From: Alkalinema sp. RU_4_3
GTDB taxonomy: Bacteria; Cyanobacteriota; Cyanobacteriia; Leptolyngbyales; Leptolyngbyaceae
DNA length: 33,324 bases
Assembly: GCA_012031975.1 (NCBI GenBank)
Contig: JAAUSA010000029.1
Span: 1 to 33,324, forward strand
Direction of reading: 5' to 3'
Position 1 is the first letter of the stretch. Every line of letters begins with the position of its first letter. Below, piece by piece: positions 1 through 32,813 of this stretch. The position numbers and the translations under genes are program-made. The notes beneath the pieces were generated by a model that made no database searches, was not told the origin of the DNA, and saw only the letters and a list, made by a program, of their open reading frames with translations.

Positions 1-1879
1 GCCGAGCTGCCCCCCAACCCCCCAATTCTGGGGGACTTCCGAGCCAAGCCTGGTTCAAAGTTCCCCAGAATTGGGGGATTTAGGGGGCCAGATATCGCCT
101 CAACAGATACGGCTTCAATAACCAACGCCTTATCCACCATGATAAAACCATAACGCTGTCGGTAAAGGGATTCAAACTGCGATCGCATCCCCTCCATTCC
201 TTCCCAATTGACAATCAATGCCGAATCCGTCCCCGCATAGCGCAAATGAACCCGCTGAAGAACCTCACCCGCCTCAACTCCTTGCTGGGCCAAATCCATT
301 GTCGCCTCCGCAATCAACTGATCCAGCGTCGTTTCAACCTGCGCTAAACTATCGGGTTCAAACGGCAACTCCACAGACTGTTCTTTTAGCGATCGCCCAT
401 CCGCCAACCCAATCCCATAGGCCGACAAAACCCCAGCAAATGGGTGAATAAAGATGGTTTTCATCCCTAGCGCTTCGGCGATCAAACAAGCATGTTGCCC
501 ACCCGCCCCACCAAAACAGCAAAGCGTGTATTCCGTCACGTCATAGCCCCGCTGGGTGGAAATCTTCTTAATTGCACTGGCCATTTTATCGATCGCGATC
601 GCCAGAAACCCCGCCGCCACAGTTTCAGGACTAGAACCATTCCCGGCAAGCTTAGTAAACTCCTGCACTACGCGATCACGATCCAAGGGCAAATCCCCCG
701 ACTCCCCAAACAAACTTGGGAAAAACTCAGCCTGAACCTTCCCCAACATCACATTACAATCCGTCACCGTCAAAGGTCCACCCCGCCGATAGCAAGCAGG
801 CCCAGGAAATGCCCCCGCAGACTCCGGCCCCACCCGATAACGCCCATTATCAAACGTCAAAATCGACCCACCCCCCGCCGCCACCGTATGGATGGACATC
901 ATGGGCGATCGCAATCTCACCCCCGCCACCTCGGTTTCAAAACTCCGCTCATATTTGCCGTTGTAGTGGGAGACATCCGTCGAGGTTCCGCCCATATCAA
1001 AACCGATGATTTTGTCGAACCCCGCGTTCAGAGATGTCTTAACCGCACCAACAATGCCGCCTGCCGGACCCGACAGAATACTATCTTTTCCCTGAAACAG
1101 CCCCGCGTCTGTCAAACCCCCATTGGACTGCATAAACAGTAGTTTCGTATCTGCCCCCAACTGACTCGAAACCTGTTCCACATAGCGGCGTAGGATCGGT
1201 GACAGGTAGGCATCGACCACCGTGGTATCACCGCGACTAATTAATTTAATCAGCGAACTGACTTGGTGAGAAACGGAAATCTGCGTAAACCCAATGGTTT
1301 GTACAATTTCCCGCAGTTTTTGTTCATGGTCCGGATAGCGATAGCCATGGAGCAGGACGATCGCACAGGCCCTTATCCCATCCCCATAGGCGGCGTTTAA
1401 CTCTGCCATCAAAACATCACTCTTCTCCAGCGCCAGCAGCACTTCTCCTTCAGCACTCATCCGCTCTGGGATTTCGATCACCCGTTCGTAGAGCATTTCA
1501 GGCAAGGCGATCGCCCGCGCAAAGATATCAGGGCGGTTTGATAGCCAATCCGCAGGGCATCTCGAAACCCCTGGGTAATCAGGAGCAGGGTGCGATCCCC
1601 CTTCCGTTCCAGCAGCGCATTGGTCGCCACCGTAGTGCCCATTTTAATCGCAGCGATTTGGTGACTGGGAATGGGTTGCCCAGGTTCGAGGTTGAGCACC
1701 TGGCGGATCCCGGCGATCGCGGCGTCCTGGTAGCGATCGGGATTCTCAGACAGCAGTTTGTGAACTGTCAGATGACCGTCGGGATGCTGGGCGACGATGT
1801 CCGTGAAGGTTCCACCGCGATCGATCCAAAATTGGTATTTTCCAAGCATTGAAGGTTGTTCACTTTTCATGGCAGGCAT
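1..1879 (-). CDS. Hydantoinase A / 5-oxoprolinase family protein, N-terminal part, frameshifted, runs off left edge
   Basis: This is the ATP-dependent ring-opening hydrolase family (N-methylhydantoinase A / 5-oxoprolinase), acting on 5-oxoproline or hydantoins in the cytoplasm. The N terminus has [13 protein letters not shown], typical of Hydant_A_N, and [15 protein letters not shown]. Downstream come [21 protein letters not shown] and [12 protein letters not shown], which form the ASKHA-type phosphate-binding core. The reading frame breaks near 1537-1539: in coding sense CAAACCG where CAAAACCG would restore [15 protein letters not shown]. After that shift it stays open to position 1 with no stop. 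Cyanobacterial homologues often fuse A and B subunits into about 1200 residues, so much of the gene lies outside. Candidate starts are 1879, 1870 and 1849; no strong RBS decides. It is divergent from the LysR gene, a likely regulator. Substrate is not determinable. Confidence 0.85.
9..88. repeat. C-rich/G-rich inverted repeat (MITE-like) inside hyuA
   Basis: Two arms, about 9-35 and 62-88, share the core CCAATTCTGG / CCAGAATTGG flanked by runs of C or G and form an inverted repeat around a spacer of about 26 bp. From general knowledge, elements of this kind (C5-TAAAT-C5-AATTCTGGGGG) are dispersed in many cyanobacterial genomes. Here the whole element is read through in frame by the hydantoinase A gene, adding a Pro/Gly-rich stretch. 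Confidence 0.6.
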
Positions 1880-1891
1880 GGGTCGCAGTGG

Positions 1892-2029
1892 TTATCTAGA
1901 TCTACGATTATCGCTTAGCCCGATTGTTAAGGCTCCTGAGATTCGATTGATGAAGAACCCATCTGTTCGTTGATCGCCATCGAAGTCATAGGAATCTTTT
2001 ACGGGATTGAGGTAGTTAGGCAATGACAT
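1892..2029 (-). CDS. Small ORF resembling one FG-GAP/VCBS repeat; possible relic
   Basis: A 45-residue reading frame starts at ATG 2029 with a GGAG about 10 nt upstream. Its middle, DFDGDQRTDGFFINRISGAL, resembles a single calcium-binding FG-GAP/VCBS propeller blade (DFxGDGxTD followed by xxxxTGAxxx). One blade cannot fold alone as a propeller, so this may be a leftover of a larger surface protein or a chance ORF. It occupies the divergent region between hyuA and the LysR gene, where promoters would also be expected. Confidence is low. Confidence 0.25.
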   Translation of the reverse strand: MSLPNYLNPVKDSYDFDGDQRTDGFFINRISGALTIGLSDNRRSR

Positions 2030-2116
2030 AATGGTTTTCTCCAGGGAGTCTGCGGCGTTATTGACCAATATGCGAGAGCTTCCCAAGCCCGTCAATCATG
2101 GGTTGAAGATGGAATC

Positions 2117-2173
2117 ATACAAATTTGCGTATAGTTCTACTCTCCCCAGATTCCCTGCTATAGTTTTGACTAT
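2117..2173. promoter_or_regulatory. Candidate LysR-type operator palindromes
   Basis: Two short dyads sit just upstream of the LysR start codon: ATAC-N8-GTAT at 2117-2132 and ATAG-N6-CTAT at 2160-2173. LysR-type regulators usually bind imperfect dyads around a T-N11-A core in the shared promoter of the regulator and its divergent target. Neither dyad matches T-N11-A exactly, so this is only a positional inference. Confidence 0.3.
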
Positions 2174-2188
2174 GCTGATAGGAACCCT

Positions 2189-3103
2189 ATGGATACTGAA
2201 TATCTCAAGCGCTTTGTTACGCTGGCCAGCATGGAACAGATTAATTTCAGCCGTGCCGCCGACATTTTAAATATTCCCCAGCCCCATCTGACGCAGCAAA
2301 TTAAGCGACTAGAGCAGGAAGTGGGGGCAGAGTTGTTCGATCGCAGTAAGCGCCCAGCCAAATTAACGCCCTCCGGCCAAGCATTTCTGCAAGAAGCCTC
2401 TGAGGCCCTGATTCGTCTCGATCGGGCTAAAATATCAGCCCAGTCGGCTGGGCGCGGTGAAGTAGGACATTTGCATATTGGCATTAATATTTCCCTCTCA
2501 AATAGCCGATTTCCGGACCTTCTCTTGGCGTTCCGCGATCGCTTCCCCAAAGTAGAAATTCGACTCCACGAAACCCTGGCTTCTGAACAAATTAGCCAGC
2601 TTCAAAATCAGCGCCTTGACATTGGTTTCCTCCATCTTTATGATCTAGAATCCTTTGACTATCGCAATGAATTTGAAAGTCTTGTGATCGCAGAGGAATC
2701 CCTCATGGTGATCCTCCCAGCGCGCCATCCCCTAGCCCAAAAAACCGCTATTAAAATTAGTGACCTCAAAGACGAGCCCTTTGTTTTGCCGTCGCTAGCG
2801 ATCGCCGGGTTTCGCCATCAAATTATCAATCTGTGTCAGCGGGCAGGTTTCTTCCCAAAAATGCAGCAGGAGGCCACCTGGACAACCACTTCACTGAGTA
2901 TGGTGGCCTGCGAAGTTGGCATTACAATTCTGCCGAGCCATGTGCAAAATCTCCAGCGATCGGGGGTTGTCTACCGGGCAATCGAGGGTGAAAGGCCCAA
3001 ACTTCAGATTGTTGCAGTATGGAGCAAGGGGTCTGAGTCAAAGGTCTTGCAGAACTTCATTGAGGTGATTAGGCAGAAGGGGCTGGTTGATGGCGGTGCA
3101 TAG
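2189..3103 (+). CDS. LysR-family transcriptional regulator
   Basis: A 304-residue protein of normal LysR length. Residues 1-60 form the winged helix-turn-helix (LKRFVTLASMEQINFSRAAD, then QPHLTQQIKRLEQEVGAELF), followed by the linker helix. Residues about 90-295 form the periplasmic-binding-like effector domain. The sequence GHLHIGINISLSNS... and LDIGFLH suggests the subgroup related to aromatic-compound regulators such as BenM/CatM, although the inducer cannot be predicted. The gene is divergent from hydantoinase A, the classical arrangement in which a LysR protein controls its neighbour and itself. The ATG at 2189 begins the usual MDTEYLKRF start of the helix-turn-helix. Confidence 0.92.
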   Translation: MDTEYLKRFVTLASMEQINFSRAADILNIPQPHLTQQIKRLEQEVGAELFDRSKRPAKLTPSGQAFLQEASEALIRLDRAKISAQSAGRGEVGHLHIGINISLSNSRFPDLLLAFRDRFPKVEIRLHETLASEQISQLQNQRLDIGFLHLYDLESFDYRNEFESLVIAEESLMVILPARHPLAQKTAIKISDLKDEPFVLPSLAIAGFRHQIINLCQRAGFFPKMQQEATWTTTSLSMVACEVGITILPSHVQNLQRSGVVYRAIEGERPKLQIVAVWSKGSESKVLQNFIEVIRQKGLVDGGA

Positions 3104-3247
3104 CCTAATTAATCGACATCGATCGCCCATTTCCCACAAACCCTTTCACTTCCAGAACACTTTCAGTCAGTATGGTGTATAACGGCAGAGGGCGACTGGG
3201 TACAATGTCCCAGCTGTCTATTCTTGTTGCTTAAGGATTAAAGATTT

Positions 3248-4348
3248 ATGGCGTTCAATGCAAGCATCCTCGGACTCAAGCCCATTGCAAAAGGTGCCTT
3301 TGGTGACGCTGTAGCAGCCTGGCAGCGTTTTCTTCAGCGCTCAGGCTTTCCCGTCGGCGCGATCGACGGTGACTTCGGCAAGGCCACGGACACCGCCACC
3401 CGCGCCTACCAGACCAAAAACCAGCTCAAGGTCACAGGCATCGCCGATCTGCCCACCTACCAGGTCGCCCTCAAACAAGGCTTCATCTTTGACATTCCAG
3501 GGGTGACGATCGCTCTCCTCCTCCAAGCCACAAACTTCAAGCTTGATGACGTCAAAGACCTGCAAAAGGCCCTCAACTCCGTTTTGACTGTCCCACCCTA
3601 TCCCAAGTACCCCACCCGTCCTGCCCTCAAACTCGACGGCGGCTTTGGGGCCAACAGCACGCGGGCCTTGGTCGAAGTCTATCGCCAACTCGACGCCAAC
3701 TTCAAACCCACCCTCACCAAAGCCCTGAGCGACAAAACCAAGAACAACTTAGGGGAGGACTTTGCCCCCGCCATGGACATCTTAGCGGAGTCTGCAAGAC
3801 GGCTGCGCGTCCGCCTCAGCGGTGCAGAATGGTATCCCAAGTTCCCCGCTAGTACCTCCCTAGAAGACCTGACCTTCCCTTTTCGCCAATACGCCAAGGA
3901 CTTTGAGAAAGCCCTCAAGGAAGCGGGGGCCAAAATCGAGATCGCCAATACCCTCCGGCCCCCGGAGCGCGTCTACCTGATGCACTATGCCACCAAGATC
4001 GCCAACGAGGACATCTATGCCGACGAGGTGCCCTATATGGCAGGCGTCGAAATTGATTGGGTCCACTACACCGATGCACTCTCGGTGCTGCGCGCCCAGG
4101 AAATGGTCGATGCCTACGAGATCGCCTATCCCCCAGCCCTACGCAGCAACCACACCCGAGGCCGGGCCGTGGATTGGTACATCACCTGGGACAAAGCCAT
4201 CAAACTGAAGGACGCCACGGGCCGCACCGTAGAAATCAACCAACCCCGCAATAGCTTTGACAACGAAGACCTCTGGCGGGTGGGATCGACCTACGGCGTT
4301 GTAAAGCTAGCCGCCGATGCCCCGCACTGGTCCCTGGACGGATTCTAG
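3248..4348 (+). CDS. Peptidoglycan-binding domain plus M15-like (VanY/DacY-type) peptidase
   Basis: A 366-residue protein. Residues about 14-78 form a PG_binding_1 domain (AWQRFLQRSGFPVGAIDGDF, then TATRAYQTKNQL). Residues about 98-165 look like a second, degenerate copy (KLDGGFGANSTRALVEVYRQ). The C-terminal domain (about 185-366) carries an M15-type zinc site: SNHTRGRAVDW gives His302 and Asp309, and DAPHWS gives His360. M15 enzymes cut D-Ala-D-Ala or L-Ala-D-Glu bonds in peptidoglycan. No signal peptide is visible, so export is by an unknown route or the substrate is reached at lysis. The gene stands alone between the LysR gene and a terminator-like hairpin. A second protein with the same two domain types in reversed order is encoded at 27127-28023. 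Confidence 0.8.
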   Translation: MAFNASILGLKPIAKGAFGDAVAAWQRFLQRSGFPVGAIDGDFGKATDTATRAYQTKNQLKVTGIADLPTYQVALKQGFIFDIPGVTIALLLQATNFKLDDVKDLQKALNSVLTVPPYPKYPTRPALKLDGGFGANSTRALVEVYRQLDANFKPTLTKALSDKTKNNLGEDFAPAMDILAESARRLRVRLSGAEWYPKFPASTSLEDLTFPFRQYAKDFEKALKEAGAKIEIANTLRPPERVYLMHYATKIANEDIYADEVPYMAGVEIDWVHYTDALSVLRAQEMVDAYEIAYPPALRSNHTRGRAVDWYITWDKAIKLKDATGRTVEINQPRNSFDNEDLWRVGSTYGVVKLAADAPHWSLDGF

Positions 4349-4364
4349 GGCATCTCGAAAAAAT

Positions 4365-4393
4365 AAGCGCACCAGCCAAACCATGGTGCGCTT
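4365..4393 (+). terminator. Strong hairpin after the M15 gene
   Basis: AAGCGCACCA at 4365-4374 pairs perfectly with TGGTGCGCTT at 4384-4393 (10 bp, 9-nt loop), starting 17 bases after the stop codon. There is no T-run on the + side. An A-run at 4358-4364 lies upstream, so as an intrinsic terminator it fits the minus strand better. Some cyanobacterial terminators lack a U-tract. Confidence 0.6.
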
Positions 4394-4512
4394 GTATCCC
4401 TAACCCTTTCGGTGCAATATACCCGTTTGTCCTTAATTGTTAGAATAGAATCCATTTCCTGGAAAGTTCTGTACGTTCATACTGTCTTTATATTTGTGGG
4501 GGATCACCCAGG

Positions 4513-4746
4513 ATGCCAATCAAGGTTCGCTTTCTTCCCGATGAAGCCACGACCGTCGCTGAAGCCGGAGAACCCCTCCTCAAGGTCGCCGATCGCGCTG
4601 GTATCGTGATCCCCACCGGATGCCTAATGGGATCCTGCCATGCCTGTGAAGTGGAGATGAACGGCGAGGAGGTCCGTAGCTGTATTACGGCTATACCGGA
4701 CACCGCAGAAATTACAATAAACCTGTTCAGCGATCCAACTTGGTAG
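4513..4746 (+). CDS. Small plant-type 2Fe-2S ferredoxin
   Basis: A 77-residue ferredoxin, shorter than photosynthetic PetF (about 97 residues). The cluster motif is GCLMGSCHACEVE, with Cys at C-x4-C-x2-C spacing, and the fourth Cys follows in VRSCITAIP. It should carry electrons to an unidentified partner. The N-terminal beta-grasp strand (IKVRFLPDEATTVAEAGEPL) is normal. The ATG at 4513 follows an AGG about 3 bases upstream and is the only sensible start. It ends 29 bp before trmD and may be co-transcribed with it. Confidence 0.88.
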   Translation: MPIKVRFLPDEATTVAEAGEPLLKVADRAGIVIPTGCLMGSCHACEVEMNGEEVRSCITAIPDTAEITINLFSDPTW

Positions 4747-4775
4747 GGCCGATCGCGCTTTTTATAAGGTCCCGC

Positions 4776-5480
4776 ATGCGCTTTGATATTCTGACCTTGT
4801 TCCCTGAGTTTTTTCGATCGCCCTTAGAGTCTGGACTACTGGCAAAGGCCTTGGCCAAGGGAATAGCCGAGGTCCACCTCACCAACCCTCGGGACTTCAC
4901 GATCGGCAAGCACCGCAAGGCCGACGATGAGCCCTACGGCGGTGGTGTAGGGATGCTGATGAAGCCAGAGCCGATTTTTGCTGCCTTTGAGACGCTGCCC
5001 CAGTTGCCGAGGCGTGAGGTTATCTATATGACCCCCCAGGGCGAAGCGATGACACAAACCCTGCTGAAGGAGTTTGCCCAGCTCGATCAGGTGGTGTTGC
5101 TCTGCGGTCACTATGAGGGCGTAGACGAACGGGTGATGCACCTGGTGACGCGGGAGGTGTCCCTGGGGGACTTTGTGCTGACCTGTGGGGAAATTCCGGC
5201 CCTGGCGCTGCTCAATGGCACAATTCGGTTGCTGCCGGGGACGATCGGCAAGGAAGACTCCCTGAAGTTTGAGAGCTTTGAGGGGGAGGGGTTGCTGGAT
5301 TATCCGCACTATACAAGGCCCCCAGTGTTTCAGGGGTGGGAGGTGCCGGAGGTGTTACTGTCGGGGCACCATGGGGCGATCGCCACCTGGAGAAGGCAGC
5401 AGCAAATAGAGCGGACCCGTGTTCGGAGACCCGATCTCTATGCGAAATGGTTGGCTAATCAGGATATCGATCATAATTAG
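4776..5480 (+). CDS. trmD: tRNA (guanine-37-N1)-methyltransferase TrmD
   Basis: TrmD methylates G37 next to the anticodon using S-adenosylmethionine and prevents +1 frameshifting. The 234-residue product has the standard MRFDILTLFPEFF start, PYGGGVGMLMKPEPI, the SAM trefoil-knot motif LLCGHYEGVDERV, SLGDFVLTCGEIPAL, LLPGTIGKEDSL, and the C-terminal YTRPPVFQGWEVPEVLLSGH. The cyanobacterial-type LTCGE replaces LTGGE. A longer reading from TTG 4740 is possible, but MRFDIL at 4776 matches the family start. The gene is 25 bp upstream of the DUF1517 gene, so the two may share a transcript. Confidence 0.96.
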   Translation: MRFDILTLFPEFFRSPLESGLLAKALAKGIAEVHLTNPRDFTIGKHRKADDEPYGGGVGMLMKPEPIFAAFETLPQLPRREVIYMTPQGEAMTQTLLKEFAQLDQVVLLCGHYEGVDERVMHLVTREVSLGDFVLTCGEIPALALLNGTIRLLPGTIGKEDSLKFESFEGEGLLDYPHYTRPPVFQGWEVPEVLLSGHHGAIATWRRQQQIERTRVRRPDLYAKWLANQDIDHN

Positions 5481-5505: not shown

Positions 5506-6471
5506 ATGAAACGCAACCTTCTCTCGCTTGGTTTAATGGCGATCGCCCTTGTCACCCTGACTGCCCCAGTTGAAGCAAAACGCAGTGGTGGCCGCAGCAG
5601 TGGCGGGTCGATCGAGCGTGCCCCCGTCAGCCGCCCGGACAGTCCCAATAATCCCAATAGCAATCCCAACAATAATCCCAATCGCAACAACTATGGCGGC
5701 GGCGGTCCTGGCTATGTCCCGGTGCCCTACGGCGGTGGCGGCGGCTTCTATGGTGGCGGTGGCATGGCGGGTGGGGCGATCGGGCGGAGTTTGTTTGACT
5801 GGATTATGCTCTTGGGCTTGATGGGCCTGGGCACCGGGGGGATGCTGATGTATTTCTCCATGCAGAAGCCGAAGGCCGGGAGCAAGCTGGCCGAGATGAA
5901 TGACCTGGTGACCTTCAGCCAGATCCAAGTGGGTTTCTATGCCACCGACTGTCCGATTCAGAAGCAGCTCACCGACATTGTTGAGACCCTACAAAACGAC
6001 GACAGCCGTGAACGGCTGGAGCAGCTTCAGGCCGTCACCCTGGCGATTCTGCGCCAGCCCAAGTTCTGGAGCCATGTCAAGTCTAGTTCCGAGACCTTTA
6101 AGAAGCGCTCCGAGGCCCAGGCCTCCTTCAACAGCCAGTCCATGGTGGAGCGGCGCAAATATGACCAGGAAAGTCTAACGCGGCGGGCGGGCCATGAAAA
6201 AGTGGTCAAACTCGCGCCCCTAACGGCCACAGAAGAAGACCAGCCCGCCGCCTATGTGGTGGTTTCACTCCTGGTGGGCAGCACCCATGATCAGCCATTG
6301 TTTGAGCCGATTCATTCTGCGGAGAGTTTGCGATCGGCCCTAGAGAAGCTGTCCGGGATGACCCAACAGGAATTGTTACAATTCGAATTCATTTGGACCC
6401 CTCAAGATCCCTCCGAAAGTCTGGGCTCTGAGGACTTGCTAGTGGACTTTCCTGATTTGCAGTTGGTTTAA
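5506..6471 (+). CDS. DUF1517 family Gly-rich membrane protein
   Basis: A 321-residue protein. Residues 1-24 form a cleavable signal peptide (LMAIALVTLTAPVEA followed by K). Then come a low-complexity Ser/Gly/Asn/Pro segment with many NPN and GGG repeats to about residue 90, a transmembrane helix (LFDWIMLLGLMGLGTGGMLM) and a soluble C-terminal DUF1517 domain starting around FSQIQVGFYA. DUF1517 proteins are found in cyanobacteria and chloroplasts; the plant relative FLAP1 affects acclimation to fluctuating light, but the biochemical role is unknown. The ATG at 5506 is chosen because it starts the signal peptide; an upstream in-frame start would place trmD codons in the protein. Confidence 0.85.
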   Translation: MKRNLLSLGLMAIALVTLTAPVEAKRSGGRSSGGSIERAPVSRPDSPNNPNSNPNNNPNRNNYGGGGPGYVPVPYGGGGGFYGGGGMAGGAIGRSLFDWIMLLGLMGLGTGGMLMYFSMQKPKAGSKLAEMNDLVTFSQIQVGFYATDCPIQKQLTDIVETLQNDDSRERLEQLQAVTLAILRQPKFWSHVKSSSETFKKRSEAQASFNSQSMVERRKYDQESLTRRAGHEKVVKLAPLTATEEDQPAAYVVVSLLVGSTHDQPLFEPIHSAESLRSALEKLSGMTQQELLQFEFIWTPQDPSESLGSEDLLVDFPDLQLV

Positions 6472-6663
6472 TTGCCATTTAATTTTGCAATTTTGGGCAA
6501 TATTTTTTTGTGCCATTTCTAATTGGGAGAAGTATCCTGGAATCTGGTTTTCCGGGATGCATCGTCAGTTTAGTAATTTAAGCGAATGGGATTTGATCAA
6601 GGTTTAACACAACCCATTCCTTGTCAGGTATTCATTATTAGAATCAGCACACCAGAGGCAGTC

Positions 6664-7524
6664 ATGGCAAATCAACGGATGCAAGCGATCGATACAACGC
6701 GCCTAGGCCTAGGTGTCCTTGCGGGCGCAATGCTTGCTCTGGGCGGTTGCAAACCCCAAGCCAAGGAAACCGCTCCCACCGCCGCTGCCCCCGCATCCAA
6801 CAACCAGATTGCGATCAATCTGCCCAATCCGCCAGCTAATACCCTGCCTGTTCCCCCCAATCCCCCGAGCGGCATGCCCACCGTGCCCCTGAAGGCCCTT
6901 GACCCCATCCAAAGCGCCCCCGGTCGCCTCTCCCAGCCCCTCAAACATCGAAGCGCGATCCCTCTCGGCGGTCCTCCCTAGCCAACTAGAGCAGCCCCTG
7001 CAAGCGATCGCCCCCAAGCGCGTCCTCACCAAGCTGACTAATAAAGCCAAATCCCTCCTCCAACCCAAGGCCAAACCGCCGACCAAAATCGCTGCGGCCC
7101 CGGTTAAGCCTAAGCAAGTTCAAAAAAAACAGGCAAAACCCCAGGCTCCGATGGTCTTCGACCGACCGGAGGTCATCGCCCCACAGCCGCCCGCAGTGAT
7201 GCCCCAGGTGAGCGTCGCGCCGTTGCCTACGGCCCCTGTCATCATGCCCGCTGCTCCGATCGCCCCCGCCCCCCCGTGGTTTCCCTAGTGGACCAGGTTG
7301 AAATTACTGGGGTGGCCCAGGTCGGTAACCAACTCCTGGTGGTCGCCCGAGGCCCCGGTGAAAGCAGTGCAAGGACCCTCGCCCCCGGTAGCTACCTGGC
7401 CTCCGGACGGATCCTTGTCAAAGCCGTGCGCCAAGCGGGTAAAGAGCCCGTGGTGGTGCTGGTGGAAAACGGCGTCGAAACCCTGCGCTCCGTCAGCGGT
7501 CAGCGGGCGATGTCAATGCGGTAA
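6664..7524 (+). CDS. Proline-rich putative lipoprotein, doubly frameshifted
   Basis: Three overlapping frames make one product. Frame 1 (from ATG 6664) gives a lipoprotein signal ending in LALGGC, then Ala/Pro-rich sequence. Frame 2 is used from about 6890-6975 to 7275 (KAPPVASPSPSNIEARSLS to PMVFDRPEVIAPQPP). The final part returns to frame 1 (VVSLVDQVEITGVAQVGNQL to QRAMSMR). The second shift sits in a C-run near 7268-7276: adding one C gives APAPPVVSLVDQ. The first needs one extra or two missing bases near 6890-6975. The C-terminal beta-rich segment (GVAQVGNQLLVVARGP, then GSYLASGRILVKAVR, then VVLVENG) recalls PilP-like or envelope-assembly lipoproteins of cyanobacteria, but the function is unknown. 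Confidence 0.65.
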
Positions 7525-7547
7525 GGTTCGTTAAGAAAGTCCTACAA

Positions 7548-7571
7548 CGGAGCCACAAATTTGTCGCTCCG
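7548..7571. repeat. Palindromic intergenic hairpin
   Basis: CGGAGC at 7548-7553 pairs with GCTCCG at 7566-7571 around an inner ACAAATTTGT palindrome, giving a near-perfect 24-bp dyad. It lies between the lipoprotein stop and the next start. It could be a terminator or a copy of a dispersed cyanobacterial palindrome; there is no T-run. Confidence 0.5.
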
Positions 7572-7607
7572 CCTTAGGCTGAGGGAAGTTCTTTCCTTGG
7601 AACAGTC

Positions 7608-8113
7608 ATGAGTCCTGCCGACCTGAGCCTCAATCCCGCCAGTCTGAAGCTTAACTACAGCGATCGCTACCGCTGTCCCCTCTGTCAGCATGGCACCCTA
7701 TCTAGTCTCATCTTGATGGATGTATTTGCCTGCGACTTCTGCCGCCACATGTTTACAGCCAACCTAGAGAACCAGGTGCTGCGCGTTGAAGACAGTTTGC
7801 AAAATTTGGCTTGGCGTTGGAACGGCAGCGCTGGCTCGGCATTGGCCAGGGTGACGGCAGTCTCTCCGGTATCATGTGGAGCTTTTGTCTCGGCATCATG
7901 ATTTTCCCCGCCCTGCTCGTGGGCCTGCCCATGCTAATCTTCGAACCCCTACCCGGCAGTGCAGCCAGTTGGTTTCCGGCCTTTTGGTTTGTGGCCACCT
8001 TGGTGCTCCATGGGACCATGGGGGCCTGGCTGCTGATGGAATATCACCAGTTTGCGCCCTACATTACGGCAAAAACGAGGTTGAGAATGTGGCGGACTAG
8101 AGCGTATAGGTGA
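7608..8113 (+). CDS. Zinc-ribbon plus two-helix membrane protein, frameshifted
   Basis: The N-terminal frame (from ATG 7608) has a zinc ribbon, YRCPLCQHGTL and FACDFCRHMF (two CxxC pairs), followed by VEDSLQNLAWRWNG. After about 7820 the protein continues in the next frame: QRWLGIGQGDGSLSG, then two transmembrane helices (GIMWSFCLGIMIFPALLVGL and FWFVATLVLHGTMGAWLLM). One missing base in AACGGCAGCGC (for example GGCC to GGC) explains the break and restores WRWNG-x-RWLG. The overall plan matches a conserved cyanobacterial membrane protein of unknown function. The stop overlaps the convergent pmbA stop by 17 bp. Confidence 0.7.
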
Positions 8114-9488
8114 ACTTGTCCACAATCATCCCCGGCGTCAACACCCCACCGATCGCCCGGTGACCATAGGTCCCCACCTCCGGCACCAGCACCTGCTCAT
8201 CCGTAAAGCCCACCAAATTCTCACCCCAGAACCGATACAGGCTCTCATCAAAGCGGAGATGCTCGATGGGTGCCACAATCTGGCCGTCTTCTACCCAGAA
8301 GCAGGCATAGCGGGTCATGCCCGTGATGCGGCCCGTGGGGCGATCGCTCCAGTTGAGATAATGCAGATTGGCCACATAGAGCCCCGTGCCTAGGACGCGC
8401 AGGACCTCATCGGTGGGAATTTCTCCAGGGGCAATTTCTAAGGCCCGTAGGGTCTCATCCCCATTGGCCCCATTGGCGGTCAGACCATATTCCTTGGCCG
8501 TGGCCGAAGCCACCAATAGCTGGGTTAATTCCCCCGCTGTGACGATCGGCACCTTCGGCGGCGCCACTTCTCCCAGTTCGTTAAACCGAGGCACTGCACT
8601 CTGGGCAAAATTCTCCCCAAAGCTCAATTTTTCGGATAGCCGTCGGCCCCCGCGCCGCATCGGGGCAAAACAACTGCCCCCCTGGCGGTAGGAGGCTTCA
8701 CTTACCCCACCCCAGGAAAGCATTGAGGTGATTTCTGCCACCGCCGCTGGGGCAAAATAGGTGCGGTACTGGCCTCGGGGGAGTTTTTTCGGCGCCATGG
8801 AGAGCCGCTTGAGCTGGACCCTGGCCGCCTGAATCTGGCGCTGGTATTGGGCATCGTCCCAGACTTTGCCAGCGATCGTTCCCTTTAGGGCCTGGCCTTG
8901 GTCTGTAAAAATTGAATAGTCCAGACTGTAATTATCCGTGGCGAACCAATGGCGCTGCCCGGCTGAGTCCGCATAGCCCCGCAGCAACTGTCCGGCGCTA
9001 TAGATGCCCGTAAAATCTAAATCCGCCACCAAAGAAAGGATCACGCCGGGTACGGACTCGGGAGAGAGCAACTGGCCAATGTGGGTTTCATGGCTTTTGG
9101 CCCCCCCAGTCGGGATGACGAGGTAAGGATTAATCGGCAACTGGGGCAACTCCTGCTGAAGCTGGTGCAGGGCCGTCATGGCCATTTCTCGATCGAGGCC
9201 CGTGCCCGTCATGGGGAATTCCCAATAGGCACTGCGGTCCGCCTGCATCAGGGTGAGCCGGGCCACGGCATCCTGGACAAACCCCGTCTGGCGGACCTTG
9301 GCCTGGTTGAACCGGACAAACTGGCTATCCTCCGCAAGCAACGTCAGTGTGAATTGCGCCTGACCCGCACAGGCCGAGTTGATCGCTTCGGCGATCTGGC
9401 CAAACTGCTCTTCTAGTTGATTCCAGGGGGAGATCACCTTGGGTGGTTCAATAACTTGATTCATCACTGCCACATCTGCCGTATCCAT
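8097..9488 (-). CDS. pmbA: TldD/PmbA family protease subunit, PmbA-like
   Basis: A 463-residue partner of TldD. Together TldD and TldE/PmbA form a heterodimeric zinc peptidase that degrades unfolded peptides and matures some modified peptides (microcin B17 in E. coli). This subunit lacks the HExxxH site, as expected for the PmbA side. Recognisable stretches include GVILSLVADLDFTGIYSAGQ, SMLSWGGVSEASYRQGGS, LYVANLHYLNWSDRPTGRIT and TRYACFWVEDGQIVAPI. The start is placed at ATG 9488, about 10 nt after GGAGGA; ATG 9497 overlaps the tldD stop but sits too close to that RBS. The genes are coupled: the GGAGGA lies within the last codons of tldD. Confidence 0.88.
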   Translation of the reverse strand: MDTADVAVMNQVIEPPKVISPWNQLEEQFGQIAEAINSACAGQAQFTLTLLAEDSQFVRFNQAKVRQTGFVQDAVARLTLMQADRSAYWEFPMTGTGLDREMAMTALHQLQQELPQLPINPYLVIPTGGAKSHETHIGQLLSPESVPGVILSLVADLDFTGIYSAGQLLRGYADSAGQRHWFATDNYSLDYSIFTDQGQALKGTIAGKVWDDAQYQRQIQAARVQLKRLSMAPKKLPRGQYRTYFAPAAVAEITSMLSWGGVSEASYRQGGSCFAPMRRGGRRLSEKLSFGENFAQSAVPRFNELGEVAPPKVPIVTAGELTQLLVASATAKEYGLTANGANGDETLRALEIAPGEIPTDEVLRVLGTGLYVANLHYLNWSDRPTGRITGMTRYACFWVEDGQIVAPIEHLRFDESLYRFWGENLVGFTDEQVLVPEVGTYGHRAIGGVLTPGMIVDKFTYTL

Positions 9489-11266: not shown

Positions 11267-12720
<1,454 letters not shown>

Positions 12721-26536: not shown

Positions 26537-26665
26537 ATGGCTACCCAGTTCCACCCTCAAACTGTAAATAAAAGTTAAAAGCCCGCTGATCTAGAAAACT
26601 TGCACTTAGTATTACAGATAACTTAGGCTCGGAATAGTTTATGTCGAACCTTTAAGGTGCTCTGT

Positions 26666-27094
26666 ATGATGAACGATCAAGTTACCCTGTATGCTGACGG
26701 CGAAGTTGTGGAGTTTCGGTCCGGTATTCCCCTCAGGCGAGTCGCCACTGGGAGAAAGATTCCAGCCTTAATCAAGGCCCTGAAATTTAGTCGATCGCCC
26801 CACTTCACAATCAGTGGCGATCCTGCACCCACGGACAAAATTCCCCAGTCCCGAGGCGGACAACATATTAATGAGGTGGGGTTAAAACTCCTGACCACCT
26901 TCGAGGGCTGTGAGCTGGAAGCCTACGATGATGGGGTTGGGGTTCTGACGATCGGCTACGGCCATACGGCAGGAGTCGTAGAGGGGATGGCCATTACCCA
27001 GGCTGAGGCCGAGGAATTTCTGCGTCAGGATCTAGAGGAATTTGAATCCTATGTGACGGATTTGGTCAATGACGGCCCCCTTGATTTGGCTTAG
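26666..27094 (+). CDS. GH24 phage-type lysozyme domain protein, C-terminally short
   Basis: A 142-residue protein. After about 70 residues of unrecognised leader (VTLYADGEVVEFRSGIPLRR...) comes a GH24 muramidase start: LLTTFEGCELEAYDDGVGVL, then TIGYGHT. This supplies the family Glu-Asp-Thr catalytic triad (Glu in FEG, Asp in AYDD, Thr in LTIGYGH). Typical GH24 domains continue with an NQFDALVSFAFN-like helix; here the frame ends at TDLVNDGPLDLA, so about half of the domain is missing. Other frames downstream give no match. ATG 26666 follows AAGGTG. It is first in a four-gene operon, 32 bp from the next start. No signal peptide or holin is seen. Activity is uncertain. Confidence 0.75.
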   Translation: MMNDQVTLYADGEVVEFRSGIPLRRVATGRKIPALIKALKFSRSPHFTISGDPAPTDKIPQSRGGQHINEVGLKLLTTFEGCELEAYDDGVGVLTIGYGHTAGVVEGMAITQAEAEEFLRQDLEEFESYVTDLVNDGPLDLA

Positions 27095-27126
27095 AAATAT
27101 CATAACGAAACTAGGAGTAAATCACC

Positions 27127-28023
27127 ATGGCAAATCCACATAAACATGCTGAATTTATCGTTGAAGCCTGCACCGAAGATCATCATCGCAATAAAACGGC
27201 TGCCCGTGCAAGTTTTAATGGTTTACTGCAAGAGGCGCCGAGTGGCGTTTCGACTTCTATTGCCAATGCTTTGTCCCAGCAATTGATCTATCAGATGCAG
27301 CTATTGGAGCCGGGGAAATTTGTCAGCTTTGAGGATTTGAATGTCGATCTCGATAGTGCAGCGTTTCCTTACGTGCAGGCTTCGGCGAGGGATGCTTTGG
27401 CGAGGGCGATCGCCGCGCGCGGGGAAGTCATGCAGGTGAATTCTTCCTACCGTACGGTGGCCCAACAAATGCTGCTGTATAACGATCGCTTTAATAATTC
27501 CAATCCCGTGGCCCCACCGGGTGCGAGTAATCATCAAACGGGATTGGCAATAGATATTGAAGATCCGCGCGGTTGGGATCCCTTCTTGATCGAGCAGGGC
27601 TGGGAGCCCTTGGGCGGCGATCCGCCTCACTTTGACTATCTGGGGGATGATGTGGTGGATTTCCGCGCGACGGCGATCTTGGCCTTCCAGAAACTATGGA
27701 ACTTGAACAATCCTTCTGCTGCGATCGATGAAGATGGTTCCTTTGGCCCCGGCACTGAATCAGCGCTATTGCAAACACCTGCTACGGGGTTTCCCATAGC
27801 ACCCTGGGCGGATAGTCCCCGGCCTTTGCGATTGAGTACGCCGCGTATGGAAGGGGCGGATGTGTTTGCGTTGCAGGAGAAATTGAAGGCGGCGGGCTTT
27901 GCGATCGCCCCCGATGGTGAATTGGGGCCGAAGACAGCGGAGGCGATTCAGGAGTTTCAGAAGAAAAAGGGATTGGAAGTCACGGGCATTGCGACAGCTG
28001 ATCTAGTAAACCAAATTGGATAG
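27127..28023 (+). CDS. M15 (VanY-type) peptidase with C-terminal peptidoglycan-binding repeats
   Basis: A 298-residue protein. Residues about 65-172 are an M15B/C-like D-Ala-D-Ala carboxypeptidase or endopeptidase: SSYRTVAQQMLLYNDRF, zinc ligands His136 and Asp143 in SNHQTGLAIDIEDP, and His168 in DPPHFDY. Residues about 178-216 (ILAFQKLWNLNNPSAAIDED, then GSFGPGTESALL) and 238-298 (VFALQEKLKAAGFAIAPDGE, then TAEAIQEFQKKKGLEVTG) are PG_binding_1 repeats. The N-terminal 60 residues are unassigned. AGGAG precedes ATG 27127. It sits between lysozyme and lipase genes with gaps of 32 and 5 bp, so it is probably co-translated. No signal peptide is visible. Confidence 0.87.
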   Translation: MANPHKHAEFIVEACTEDHHRNKTAARASFNGLLQEAPSGVSTSIANALSQQLIYQMQLLEPGKFVSFEDLNVDLDSAAFPYVQASARDALARAIAARGEVMQVNSSYRTVAQQMLLYNDRFNNSNPVAPPGASNHQTGLAIDIEDPRGWDPFLIEQGWEPLGGDPPHFDYLGDDVVDFRATAILAFQKLWNLNNPSAAIDEDGSFGPGTESALLQTPATGFPIAPWADSPRPLRLSTPRMEGADVFALQEKLKAAGFAIAPDGELGPKTAEAIQEFQKKKGLEVTGIATADLVNQIG

Positions 28024-28028
28024 TCACC

Positions 28029-29459
28029 ATGGCCAGTAAAATTCCGATGGGCGATATGGTCGTGATTCTACCGGGGATCATGGGCAGTGTGCTGCAAAAG
28101 GATGGCAAGGATCTCTGGGCGATTTCGGGGACGGCTCTTTGGGATGGACTGCTCGATCGCGAGGGTTTTGCCGAGCGTCTGCAACTCAAAGAGGATGATC
28201 CGATCGCCGCCGATCTTGGGGATGGGATCAAGGCGGTGCGTCTGTTTGAGGATGCAATGATTGTGCCGGGGTTTATGAAAATTGATGGGTATACGCAGAC
28301 GGCCCAGATGATCACGCAAAACTTTGATGTGGTCGAGGGTGATATCTATCGAGATGCTTGGGATAAACCTGCGAATTTCTATCGCTTTCCCTACGACTGG
28401 CGGCGGGATAATCGGGCCAATGCCAGAATTTTAAAGGACCTCCTCGATCGGCGTTTGGCCTGTTGGCGATCGCGCAGTGGGAATCCCCAGGCGAAGTTGA
28501 TCCGTGATGGCCCACAGTATGGGGGGCTTGGGTGTGCTCGCTATTACCTGGAGGTGTTGGGGGGCTGGCGGGATGCCAAGGCGCTCTTTACCTTTGGTAC
28601 GCCTTACCGGGGGGCTTTGGTGGCGGTGGATTCCCTATCCAATGACTACAAGAAGCGGTTTTTGGATCTGCGGGCGGCAATGCGATCGATGACTTCGATT
28701 TATCAATTGCTGCCGATCTATGAGGTGATTAAGATTGGCGATCGCTACCATCGGGTAGCCGAAGTGGAGAAATTGCCGAACATCGATCGCGCCAAGGCCC
28801 AAAATGCCCTAGCCTTTCATCGCGAGATTGAAACCGCTGTGACAGAAAACCTCAAGGACCCAGCCTATGCGGGGTTTAGTACCATGCCGATCGTCGGGAT
28901 TCAGCAGGAAACCTACCAATCGGCGGAGCTGGTCAACGGCGAATTAAAGCTGAGCTATGACCTGCCTGCGGTGCTAAAGAATCGACCGGATTTAGTCGAT
29001 GGTGATGGCACGGTGCCCCAGGTTTCGGCGATTCCGATCGAGCTATCCAAGAGTTTGAAAAATAACTTCATTGCGGAGAAACATGCCGCGATTCAAAACC
29101 AAAAGCAGGTGCTTGAAAATCTGCGGGAAGGGATTTCCCTGAGTCAGTTTAGTTTGGATGCAGTGCGTGCCGCCCAGGGAGCGATTAGTCTTTCCCTGGA
29201 AGACCTGTACCTGGCCGATGAGCCGATTCAGCTCCGGGCCAGGCTGATGGGGAGTGCGGCCCTGGGGAATGCCTCCCTAACGGCGGAGATTACATCCATA
29301 GCCGATGGGAAGGCGATCGCCGTTCCTTTTGTGCAGGGCGAGGAGAATCGGTGGGAATTGGCGATCGAGCTGCCGGCTGGGCAGTATCGTGTGGCGGTCT
29401 CGACGGAAGATGAGGCGGTGGCGACGCCTGTCCATGATTTGTTTGAAGTATTGCGGTAG
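28029..29459 (+). CDS. LCAT-family lipase/acyltransferase, nucleophile region locally frameshifted
   Basis: A 476-residue alpha/beta-hydrolase of the lecithin:cholesterol acyltransferase type. It starts VVILPGIMGSVLQKDGKDLW, then NFYRFPYDWRRDN and LFTFGTPYRGA. The catalytic Asp is D326 in VDGDGTVP and the His is H352 in EKHAAIQNQ. The nucleophile elbow is odd: the main frame reads KLIRDGPQYGGLGCARYY at residues 157-172, but the next frame at 28504-28540 spells VMAHSMGGLGV, a perfect GxSxG-type elbow (AHSMGG). Paired single-base shifts around 28503 and 28535-28545 would restore it. Residues about 385-476 form a beta-rich tail. It lies 9 bp upstream of the caspase-serpin gene. Confidence 0.85.
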   Translation: MASKIPMGDMVVILPGIMGSVLQKDGKDLWAISGTALWDGLLDREGFAERLQLKEDDPIAADLGDGIKAVRLFEDAMIVPGFMKIDGYTQTAQMITQNFDVVEGDIYRDAWDKPANFYRFPYDWRRDNRANARILKDLLDRRLACWRSRSGNPQAKLIRDGPQYGGLGCARYYLEVLGGWRDAKALFTFGTPYRGALVAVDSLSNDYKKRFLDLRAAMRSMTSIYQLLPIYEVIKIGDRYHRVAEVEKLPNIDRAKAQNALAFHREIETAVTENLKDPAYAGFSTMPIVGIQQETYQSAELVNGELKLSYDLPAVLKNRPDLVDGDGTVPQVSAIPIELSKSLKNNFIAEKHAAIQNQKQVLENLREGISLSQFSLDAVRAAQGAISLSLEDLYLADEPIQLRARLMGSAALGNASLTAEITSIADGKAIAVPFVQGEENRWELAIELPAGQYRVAVSTEDEAVATPVHDLFEVLR

Positions 29460-29468
29460 GGGGGAATT

Positions 29469-32400
29469 ATGGCGGATACAGATCTCTATGCGTTGTTGAT
29501 TGGGATTAATTACTACTACCCCAATCGGCTGTCCGATGGCAGTACCTATAAGGATTTAGAGGGGGCTGTGGGGGATGTCTTGGCCACGCGGGCTTTCTTA
29601 CAGACGATGCGACAGGTGCCGGATGACCATATTTTGCAGTTGACTTCGACGACGGATGAGGAGGCGGGGGAGCCCGTTGAGCCCCCTGAGCAATTGCCGA
29701 CCTATGCGAATATTATTCAGAAGTTTCAGGAACTCGGCGATCTTGCTCCGGCGGGTTCCCAGGTCTATATCCACTATTCGGGCCATGGCGGGCGGGCGCG
29801 TACGATCTATCCCCAGCTTAAAGGCGGTCCTCAGGGAATTGACGAGGGTTTGGTGCCTGTGGATATTGGCAAGCCGGAGGGGCAATATCTGCGGGATATT
29901 GAACTGGGTAAGTTGCTGAAGGATTTGGTGAATAAGGGATTAATTGTTACGGTGGTGCTGGACAGTTGTCATTCTGGGGGAGCAACTCGCGGGGAAGCGG
30001 CGGTGCGGGGTTTGGATACGATCGATGATACCCCCCGACCTGGGAGCAATCTGGCCGGAACCCCGGAGGAATTGGCGGAAAACTGGAGTGGTTTGAAGAG
30101 TGAAAACACCCGAGGGTTGAACTCTGGCTGGCTGCCGGAATCGCGGGATTACGTTTTACTGGCGGCCTGTCGTCCGAATGAGTTTGCCTATGAGTATGCC
30201 TTTGATAGTCAAACCAAGCAGCGTCGTGGGGCCTTGACCTATTGGCTGTTGGATTCCCTCCAGCAACAGACGAGTGGTTTGACCTATAAAGATCTGCACG
30301 ATCGCCTCAATGGTAAAATCCGCACCCAGTTTGCCCAGCAGACGCCGATGCTGATGGGGGAGGGCGATCGCTTGGTGTTTGGCAGCGATCGGGCAGATAT
30401 TCAGTACAGTATTCCCGTCTTGACTGTGGATACGGTGAAAAACATCGTCAAATTGGAAGCAGGCCAATCGATGGGATTGCGATTGGGTGCGGAGTTTGCG
30501 ATTTATCCGAATGGGACGCGGGACTTTTCGAATAAGGACGATCGATTGGCGATCGTCAAGATTGATGAGTTGGGTTCGACCAGTTCCCAGGGGCCATTGG
30601 AGGCTATCTTTGGTCAGCGAGCCGTGGATGTAGGGGATGTGGCTATCTTGATCGCAGCTTCAACAAATCTGGTCAAAAAAGTTCAATTGCTGCCTCAGGA
30701 AGCATTTGCCGATGAGATGGAGGGTTTGCAGGAAGTTCAATCCTTGCTGGGGATGAATCCCCGGTTGACGTTGGTAGAGTCTGGAACGCCAAGTCATTAC
30801 ACGGTGGCTGTGAATGCTAACGGAGAATTTGAAATTTGCGATCAAGCAGGGGTCGTGATTCCCAATCTACGCCCGCCAGTACGGATGAAGGAACCGAATG
30901 CAGCTCGGAAGGTGGTCGATCGCCTAGTCCATTTAGCGATGTACCATGCGACGGAGGCCCTGGATAACTTCGATAAAAACTCGCCCATGTTCGGGAAAAT
31001 ACAGGTGTCCTGGCTGGGGAAACTTCAAAATTATGATCTCGCTGATCCGATTCCAGAGGTTGTTGAGCCCTTTAGTGAGCCAGGAAATCCAGCTATTGAG
31101 GAAGGGGAATGGATTTTCTTAAACATCCAAAATAATTTTAGCCGCGCAGTGAATGTAGTAGTGTTAAATCTACAGTCAGACTGGGAAATTAAACAAGTGC
31201 AACCCGCTGACCCCGGTTCCAATTTTAACACTATAGATGCAGGTAAAAGTGTCACTTACCCATTCAAACCATCATTGGTAGAAGGCTACCTTCAAACTGT
31301 GGATGTGGTTAAAGTCTTTGCTGCAATTGATTCTCCCAATTTTCGGCTGTTATCGTTGCCTGCACTCGATCAACCCCGCTTGTCTCTAGGAAGTCGCACT
31401 GGTGATCCGTTAGAAGCACTATTGGCAGCGGTTAGTGGTGCAGCTCCAAGTAGCCGTAATATCAACCCGGCTCGGTATCCCAGTCAAGAATGGACAACCC
31501 AACAAGTTCGTATCACTGTGAGCCACCCTGGGCTCAGGAACACCAGGAATTTTGAACCTATGACGGGTATTGTGCTAGGCACCATCGCTGAATCTATGGC
31601 GGATATCGTGCACGACCCAGCAACTCTAGGGAAATCAACTCGATCGACCATTATTACAACCAGACGAATCCCCACGATCGCCCAATCTGAGGAACTTTTC
31701 CGCAATGTTGAAAAGCTCGTTCAAGGGCAAAATGCCTTCAGTTTTAGGCTATTGAATGCGATCGCCTCCCCTTCGACCCAGGAAAATATATTCATTGCAC
31801 CCTTGAGTATTGCGATCGCCCTGCTGATGATCCTAAATGTAAGTAAAACGGGTAGCCCGACGCAACTGTCCATGCTGCAACTGCTCGAAGCCAGAGGGAT
31901 GACATTACGGCAGTTGAATGAAGCTGCCTATACAGCATTTACTAAAATTCAAGCGGATCTTGATCCGACCTTAAGATTGGCCTTGGCAAACTCAATATGG
32001 ACTCGGACTGGTCAAGCGACGGATTCTGTGCGCAGCCAGACATTAGTTGACTACTACGATGCTGAGGTTTGGCAATTTAGTAATGATATTGAAGAAACGG
32101 TGAATCTGATTAATGGCTGGATTTCTGATAAAACAAATGCAAAGGTCCAAGACGTTATTGATGAGCCATTACTAGTACGAGCTGTCATTGTCTTGATTAA
32201 TGCGGTCTATTTCAAAGGCATGTGGGCTTCATCCTTTGATCCAGAAACAACCCGCCCCTACTTGAGCACCAATTTTGTTCCGCCTCGACAATTAATGATG
32301 ATGTCGCAGTCCGGCGCGTTTGACTACTGCGAAACCGATGATTTTCAGGCCGTTCGCTTAGCCTATGCCAATTCTAACTTGAGCATGGCCATCTTTCTAC

Positions 32401-32813
32401 CACAAACTAGCTGCACAATTGAGCAATTTCAGTCAATGCTTAGCTCAGAATCTTGGCAAACATGGCAGACAGCGTTTCAGCGAAAGGAAGGTACCATCGA
32501 CCTGCCTCGATTTAAAGTAGCCTACCACAGGGATCTGCTAGAGGATCTTCTCAGCCTATCTAGCTTAGAAAAATTAGGTCTACAGCTTGCCGAGGGAATG
32601 CCTGAAGAACGAATCACAAGTGCCATCCATCAAACCTTCTTGGAGGTCAATGAAGCAGGTTCAGAAGCGGCGGCGGCAACCGTTGTGATCGCGACACGTG
32701 GTTTCAATCCTAATACGTTTAGGATGACTGTCGATCGCCCATTCGTCTGTATAATCCACGATCGTGATTCAGGTGTCATTCTATTCACGGGAATCATTAG
32801 AGATCCCGCCTGA
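29469..32813 (+). CDS. Caspase-fold protease (orthocaspase-like) fused to a C-terminal serpin
   Basis: An 1114-residue protein with an intact frame. Residues about 4-308 are a C14 caspase-like domain: YALLIGINYYYP, catalytic His106 in HYSGHGG, catalytic Cys167 in VLDSCHSGG, and YVLLAACRPNEFAYE. Bacterial caspase-like enzymes mostly cut after Arg or Lys. Residues about 310-680 are a beta-rich middle, with DUF4384-like sequence near 545-640. Residues about 744-1114 are a full-length serpin: NIFIAPLSIAIALLMILN, VLINAVYFKGMWASSFDP, the hinge NEAGSEAAAAT (1061-1071), and DRPFVCIIHDRDSGVILFTG. The hinge has the small residues needed for inhibitory loop insertion, and R1077 lies in the reactive loop. 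RBS GGGGGGAA precedes ATG 29469. No signal peptide or membrane segment is visible. Confidence 0.9.
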   Translation: MADTDLYALLIGINYYYPNRLSDGSTYKDLEGAVGDVLATRAFLQTMRQVPDDHILQLTSTTDEEAGEPVEPPEQLPTYANIIQKFQELGDLAPAGSQVYIHYSGHGGRARTIYPQLKGGPQGIDEGLVPVDIGKPEGQYLRDIELGKLLKDLVNKGLIVTVVLDSCHSGGATRGEAAVRGLDTIDDTPRPGSNLAGTPEELAENWSGLKSENTRGLNSGWLPESRDYVLLAACRPNEFAYEYAFDSQTKQRRGALTYWLLDSLQQQTSGLTYKDLHDRLNGKIRTQFAQQTPMLMGEGDRLVFGSDRADIQYSIPVLTVDTVKNIVKLEAGQSMGLRLGAEFAIYPNGTRDFSNKDDRLAIVKIDELGSTSSQGPLEAIFGQRAVDVGDVAILIAASTNLVKKVQLLPQEAFADEMEGLQEVQSLLGMNPRLTLVESGTPSHYTVAVNANGEFEICDQAGVVIPNLRPPVRMKEPNAARKVVDRLVHLAMYHATEALDNFDKNSPMFGKIQVSWLGKLQNYDLADPIPEVVEPFSEPGNPAIEEGEWIFLNIQNNFSRAVNVVVLNLQSDWEIKQVQPADPGSNFNTIDAGKSVTYPFKPSLVEGYLQTVDVVKVFAAIDSPNFRLLSLPALDQPRLSLGSRTGDPLEALLAAVSGAAPSSRNINPARYPSQEWTTQQVRITVSHPGLRNTRNFEPMTGIVLGTIAESMADIVHDPATLGKSTRSTIITTRRIPTIAQSEELFRNVEKLVQGQNAFSFRLLNAIASPSTQENIFIAPLSIAIALLMILNVSKTGSPTQLSMLQLLEARGMTLRQLNEAAYTAFTKIQADLDPTLRLALANSIWTRTGQATDSVRSQTLVDYYDAEVWQFSNDIEETVNLINGWISDKTNAKVQDVIDEPLLVRAVIVLINAVYFKGMWASSFDPETTRPYLSTNFVPPRQLMMMSQSGAFDYCETDDFQAVRLAYANSNLSMAIFLPQTSCTIEQFQSMLSSESWQTWQTAFQRKEGTIDLPRFKVAYHRDLLEDLLSLSSLEKLGLQLAEGMPEERITSAIHQTFLEVNEAGSEAAAATVVIATRGFNPNTFRMTVDRPFVCIIHDRDSGVILFTGIIRDPA

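Follow-up and report, generated by a model that had tools for sequence, protein, structure and literature searches.

A caspase-like protease and a serpin that appear to be encoded by a single cyanobacterial gene

Serpins are spring-loaded proteins that destroy protein-cutting enzymes. In Arabidopsis, AtSerpin1 inhibits the metacaspases AtMC9, AtMC4 and AtMC1 by a suicide mechanism (PMC12485229), and AtMC9 is a reported target of this serpin in two sources (PMC12485229; PMC3534287). Arg/Lys specificity is predicted for cyanobacterial orthocaspases generally, and a survey of 473 of them recorded 35 accessory domains, the serpin not among them (PMC8283722). In the literature that we searched, no natural protein inhibitor of bacterial orthocaspases was identified, and the only match for a serpin together with an orthocaspase concerns a green alga.

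Here we describe a reading frame in which a caspase-like protease and a serpin appear to be encoded by a single cyanobacterial gene, as seen in one draft assembly with an excess of frameshifts. The window, that is, the whole stretch of DNA that we analysed, is an entire contig of 33,324 nucleotides (JAAUSA010000029.1) of Alkalinema sp. RU_4_3, whose genome is assembled as 5.25 Mb in 362 contigs (GCA_012031975.1). A first-pass annotation of this DNA had reported an intact frame of 1114 codons with a caspase His/Cys pair and a complete serpin at the C terminus. The frame (ORF P0001, 1114 aa) is indeed uninterrupted, the C-terminal ending DRPFVCIIHDRDSGVILFTG is present as described, and Pfam matches both halves, Peptidase_C14 at residues 7-295 and Serpin at residues 753-1113, in agreement with a sequence search of the PDB. 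The layout that had been given is right for the two domains and is refined between them, where the ancestral caspase protein ends at about residue 685, residues 311-685 being the usual C-terminal half of this protein family and residues 686-745 a linker (Table 1). Rfam and tRNA scans of the window gave no matches.

Table 1. Features of the fused reading frame and of the genes immediately upstream of it.
Feature	Position	Strand	Basis
Whole fused frame, 1114 aa	29469..32813	+	ORF reading, Pfam
Caspase domain (Peptidase_C14, orthocaspase/metacaspase-like), residues 1-307	29469..30389	+	PF00656 E 1e-17; AF2 model against AtMC9, Z 26.8 over model residues 2-307
Catalytic His106 codon	29784..29786	+	Invariant in 33 aligned family members
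Catalytic Cys167 codon	29967..29969	+	Invariant in 33 aligned family members
C-terminal half specific to this caspase family, residues ~308-685	30390..31523	+	Alignment with G007, G006, G030 and 80 named loci; PADLOC 'caspase' model covers residues 5-686
Linker, residues 686-745 (60 residues), contains Arg732-Arg733	31524..31703	+	Unmatched in relatives
AGGAA followed by ATG (M698); TGA of frame +1 overlaps the ATG (31561-31563)	31545..31562	+	Possible old gene boundary or internal start, from sequence
Serpin domain, residues 746-1114	31704..32810	+	PF00079 E 1.5e-71, full length; AF2 model against antithrombin, Z 45.6
Reactive centre loop from P17 Glu1062: EAGSEAAAATVVIATRGFNPNTFRMTV	32652..32732	+	Alignment with serpins; Arg1077 at 32697-32699
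LCAT-like lipase relative, 9-bp gap before the fused gene	28029..29459	+	Nucleophile-elbow region out of frame in the assembly
VanY/peptidoglycan-binding carboxypeptidase, conserved upstream neighbour of the caspase family	27127..28023	+	Domain match, loci comparison
N-terminal part of a phage-type lysozyme, conserved upstream neighbour, truncated here	26657..27094	+	Domain match, loci comparison

The match of the N-terminal part to Peptidase_C14 (E 1e-17) scores 65.1 bits against a curated cut-off of 21.4, the PDB sequence search pairs the same part with metacaspases, and the caspase core matches the PADLOC 'caspase' model PDLC02987 over positions 2-453 of 453 (E 9.1e-53). The catalytic dyad lies where the earlier reading had placed it, H106 in YSGHGG and C167 in DSCHSGG, and both residues are invariant in the 33 family members that we aligned. 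Three further residues, D36, S104 and D165, sit in GCxxD, SGH and DSC motifs and are likewise conserved (33/33 for D36 and D165, 32/33 for S104); by motif alignment they are the equivalents of Asp95, Ser156 and Asp211, the S1 pocket residues of TbMCA2 (PMC4357240). Given this match to the TbMCA2 pocket, the caspase half is predicted to be Arg/Lys-specific. The closest solved structure to the AF2 model of this half (mean pLDDT 81.6) is AtMC9 (9n3e, Z 26.8, rmsd 3.5, 264 aligned), which makes the comparison with plant metacaspases and their serpins, already drawn in the first-pass annotation, an apt one. The caspase and serpin halves were modelled separately, and we make no claim on their relative placement.

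Residues 1-685 correspond to a stand-alone orthocaspase of about 700 aa that is found in about 80 relatives; the 80 loci retained from our scan of named genomes come mainly from cyanobacteria, with a few from Acidobacteria, Chloroflexi and others. Aligned to the query, the frames of these relatives span residues 4-685, and almost all end within about 6 residues of position 685, the stand-alone proteins finishing in W-T-T-x-Q-V...V-K-stop. The three closest are 71% (G007, with a 699-aa frame), 53% (G006) and 42% (G030) identical, and none of these three has a serpin in the same frame. Because the relatives' frames stop at about residue 685, the serpin lies behind the ancestral C-terminus, joined to it through residues 686-745; as judged from the alignments, the serpin and its 60-residue linker are attached exactly at this terminus. 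Three other family members, two genes of locus L068 and one of L146, are extended at the same point, and real additions at the caspase C-terminus occur in roughly 3% of family members, so this C-terminal slot accepts new domains.

In L068, a Pyrinomonadaceae genome, two divergent genes at 5941-9486 (+) and 1-5307 (-) couple this caspase core with a calcineurin-like phosphoesterase (Metallophos) and with a TPR-CHAT region, the TPR-CHAT fusion amounting to two caspase-fold proteases in one chain. In the cyanobacterial L146, the caspase core is followed by a Pro-rich linker and then by a second caspase-like (CHAT-like) domain with an HFSGHG motif, as we read it from the sequence.

Frame-split sites are about eightfold in excess in this assembly: in a sample of the genome we counted 10 in 81 kb of covered coding sequence, as against 3 in 183 kb from three relatives (1, 0 and 2 sites in 63, 57 and 63 kb, respectively). 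Within the same contig, cysS (cysteinyl-tRNA synthetase, 11267-12720 on the minus strand), which has no second good copy in the genome, breaks into two frames near position 12070, most likely through an indel error in the assembly. In the adjoining LCAT-like lipase, a patch of about 12 codons (28499-28545) is out of frame exactly where the relatives have AHSMGG, and the motif is present in another frame, so that this patch would reflect two compensating indels, either errors or real. At the junction of the fused gene, stop codons close one of the other frames at 31553-31555 and the remaining one at 31561-31563; the latter stop overlaps the ATG at 31560 as ATGA, with AGGAA at 31545, ten bases upstream. 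Given the excess of frameshifts, a single indel near 31521-31560 could have fused what are in fact two neighbouring genes, and the fusion could thus be an artefact, produced by a one-base indel error near the end of a caspase gene that is followed on the same strand by a serpin gene starting at the ATG at 31560 or 31596. We consider this unlikely. Homology fixes frame 0 at least to V684, so an artefactual indel must lie within about 40 bases, for which the measured rate gives a chance of roughly 0.5%; the caspase would in that case end in a tail of 11-13 residues, which is found in few relatives; and three other family members have real domain additions at the same slot. In our judgement, the fusion is probably real. 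If the junction were an error after all, the side-by-side genes would remain candidates for a bacterial pair of protease and inhibitor.

The C-terminal half matches Serpin (PF00079) with an E value of 1.5e-71 and 242 bits against a curated cut-off of 27, over positions 2-370 of the 370 in the profile, and in the PDB sequence search it matches serpins over residues 751-1110, the best being miropin (5ncs, E 7.6e-47). Its AF2 model matches antithrombin (1att) with a Z score of 45.6, an rmsd of 2.3 and 365 aligned residues; the mean pLDDT of the model is 72.1, with weak stretches in the loop and in residues 1030-1051, the latter a region that lacks conserved residues. The hinge, E-A-G-S-E-A-A-A-A-T, is of the inhibitory type (P15-P9 pattern G-[TS]-E-A-A-A-A-T), and at the level of the hinge the first suggestion of an inhibitory serpin is supported. 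The reactive loop is 3 residues shorter than that of nearly all relatives, and its centre reads IATRGF where stand-alone cyanobacterial serpins have (I/V)xAT-S. By the standard count to P1, which is 17 residues from the conserved Glu (PMC3534287), Gly1078 is P1 and Arg1077 is P2; by a count of 16, as in some animal serpins, Arg1077 is P1, which holds only if the loop here is one residue short. The fused serpin has no hydrophobic N-terminal export signal, whereas in the stand-alone serpins that we inspected the N-terminus is hydrophobic and in most cases contains a Cys, as in serpins that are exported or are lipoproteins.

Of 103 positions that are nearly invariant in 35 stand-alone cyanobacterial serpins, the fused serpin retains 74 and has changed at 29, while in a matching test the genome's own stand-alone serpin retains 93 of 108. 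In the tree, the fused serpin forms a long unplaced branch (2.55 against a median of 0.18). Although the protein sequence has diverged by about 60%, the frame is open over 369 codons, and the fused serpin retains the hinge and most core motifs. It has changed fast while its frame and hinge persisted. We rejected a frameshift inside the serpin, since all stand-alone serpins align with it in one frame, and we also rejected a duplication of the genome's own serpin, which is 34% identical to it and no closer than others are.

A search for other chains that combine C14 with PF00079 found none. No second C14-serpin chain was present in 386 genomes of the phylum, which we searched both with the serpin profile and with the serpin sequence, in 390 genomes of the class, in all 42 genomes of the order, in 251 and 247 genomes from the phyla to which two distant hosts belong (Chloroflexi and Acidobacteria), or in the named genomes, plasmids, phages and viral contigs searched, and no caspase domain is visible in the other long serpin frames (L021, L022 and L023). 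The C14-serpin chain would be a new domain architecture, and the earlier remark that no prokaryotic caspase-serpin fusion has been described holds for the sequence collections and literature that we searched.

Some other serpins came to light in these searches. L021 and L022 contain tandem runs of lipoprotein serpins in a deep-branching family of the cyanobacterial phylum, and one of these serpins continues into a long C-terminal region of unidentified domains. Unannotated serpin relatives of 27-31% identity are also encoded in two phage records that derive from human faecal samples (MT835510.1, 32665-33738; MT835777.1, 11157-12272).

In the best-supported, though tentative, reading, the serpin, tethered to a predicted Arg/Lys-specific orthocaspase, may be a suicide brake or consumable threshold on intracellular Arg-specific protease activity, that of its own caspase first. 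The reactive loop would be cut near Arg1077 by the caspase itself, by another copy close by or by a related protease, the serpin would then spring and covalently trap the protease that made the cut, and net proteolysis would start only once the serpin had been consumed or had been released through cleavage of the linker, with Arg732-Arg733 as one possible site. Through the tether, protease and inhibitor would share one compartment at a 1:1 ratio. In favour of a brake, the dyad is intact and the Arg-specific S1 residues are kept, the fold closest to the caspase half is that of AtMC9, a type that plant serpins trap, the serpin has the full profile, the inhibitory hinge and the serpin fold, its loop is altered to contain an Arg, and the export signal of stand-alone serpins is absent. 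Inhibition itself, the bond that is cut and the caspase as the target are what we infer.

There are also points against such a brake. At a ratio of 1:1, a suicide inhibitor could shut its protease down permanently, which would be costly unless regulated, the strict 17-residue count leaves the Arg one position short of P1, there is no co-evolution signal or relative with the same fusion to draw on, and the fusion might itself come from the assembly. Given the long branch and the changes at 29 of the 103 nearly invariant positions, the serpin may have lost inhibition. The same changes, together with the low model confidence and missing residues at 1030-1051, would fit a real fusion in which the serpin does not inhibit its own caspase and is a trap for another cytosolic protease, or a decayed or structural domain. 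We regard this as quite unlikely, as a frame of 369 codons has stayed open at this level of divergence with the hinge and most core motifs kept.

The genes upstream of the fused gene encode polysaccharide export, lysozyme, VanY and lipase proteins, and we found no defence-island genes, trigger or partner beside it; the three upstream neighbours tested with PADLOC gave no match. Genes for lysozyme, for VanY or C39 peptidase, and for lipase are repeatedly found next to members of the caspase family, each in 11 to 26 of the loci examined. We also observed a recurrent cyanobacterial cassette made up of a phage-type lysozyme, a VanY or C39 peptidase with a peptidoglycan-binding domain, and an orthocaspase, located here at 26657-28023 and seen also in L018, L019, L025, L026, L031, L080, L086 and L092, with an LCAT-like lipase in 13 loci. 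This cassette looks like a set of lytic enzymes. The fused gene may plausibly have a part in cell lysis, cell death or conflict. Elsewhere in the window, there is a further frame-split site at about 1535, between the minus-strand ORFs 3-1505 and 1478-1879.

The main rival to a brake is a protease sensor, in which the serpin loop would be bait for another, perhaps foreign, protease; its cleavage, or the trapping of that protease, would take the serpin from the stressed to the relaxed state, and this change would relieve or activate the caspase, with cell death or defence as the outcome. Domains added at the C terminus of orthocaspases commonly serve as sensor or interaction modules (WD40, TPR, SAVED and others; PMC8283722), the same slot is occupied by Metallophos and TPR-CHAT in L068 and by a second caspase-like domain in L146, and a PADLOC defence model is matched by the caspase core over its full length. 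However, the adjoining genes offered no trigger, partner or defence island, and our search gave no known case of a serpin as an activating sensor; we think a sensor unlikely.

It is conceivable, if doubtful, that a bacterial caspase homologue has its own covalent suicide inhibitor in cis, as a self-limiting protease, and that consumption of the serpin sets a threshold or timer for cell death. The control of metacaspases by serpins, as in plants, would then have its first prokaryotic counterpart and its first example in cis. The fusion would extend the plant metacaspase-serpin pairing to bacteria as a natural protease with a built-in irreversible inhibitor, and a metacaspase-like protease joined to a serpin would make the silencing of bacterial orthocaspases testable in one recombinant protein.

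Stand-alone cyanobacterial orthocaspases, such as those of a Nostoc carneum plasmid (NIES2107_74830) and of Allocoleopsis (WP_015211578), are 39-71% identical to the fused protein end to end over residues 1-685 and have the same dyad and S1 residues, but they end at about residue 685, none with a serpin, where the fused protein continues. The orthocaspases of L068 and L146 share both the core and the point of addition, and there the added domain is another enzyme or repeat, whereas here it is a protease inhibitor. Stand-alone cyanobacterial serpins, at 33-41% identity, have the full serpin profile and the inhibitory hinge just as the fused one does; they are exported proteins or lipoproteins by their N-termini, with an Ala-Thr-Ser loop centre and a loop three residues longer, whereas the fused serpin has no signal and a TRG loop. 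The Arabidopsis pair of AtMC9 and AtSerpin1 resembles the fusion in the fold of AtMC9, which is closest to that of the caspase half, in the determinants of Arg/Lys specificity and in the Arg of the serpin loop. AtMC9 and AtSerpin1 are two separate proteins, whereas the fusion is one polypeptide, its loop Arg at the canonical P2 by the strict count.
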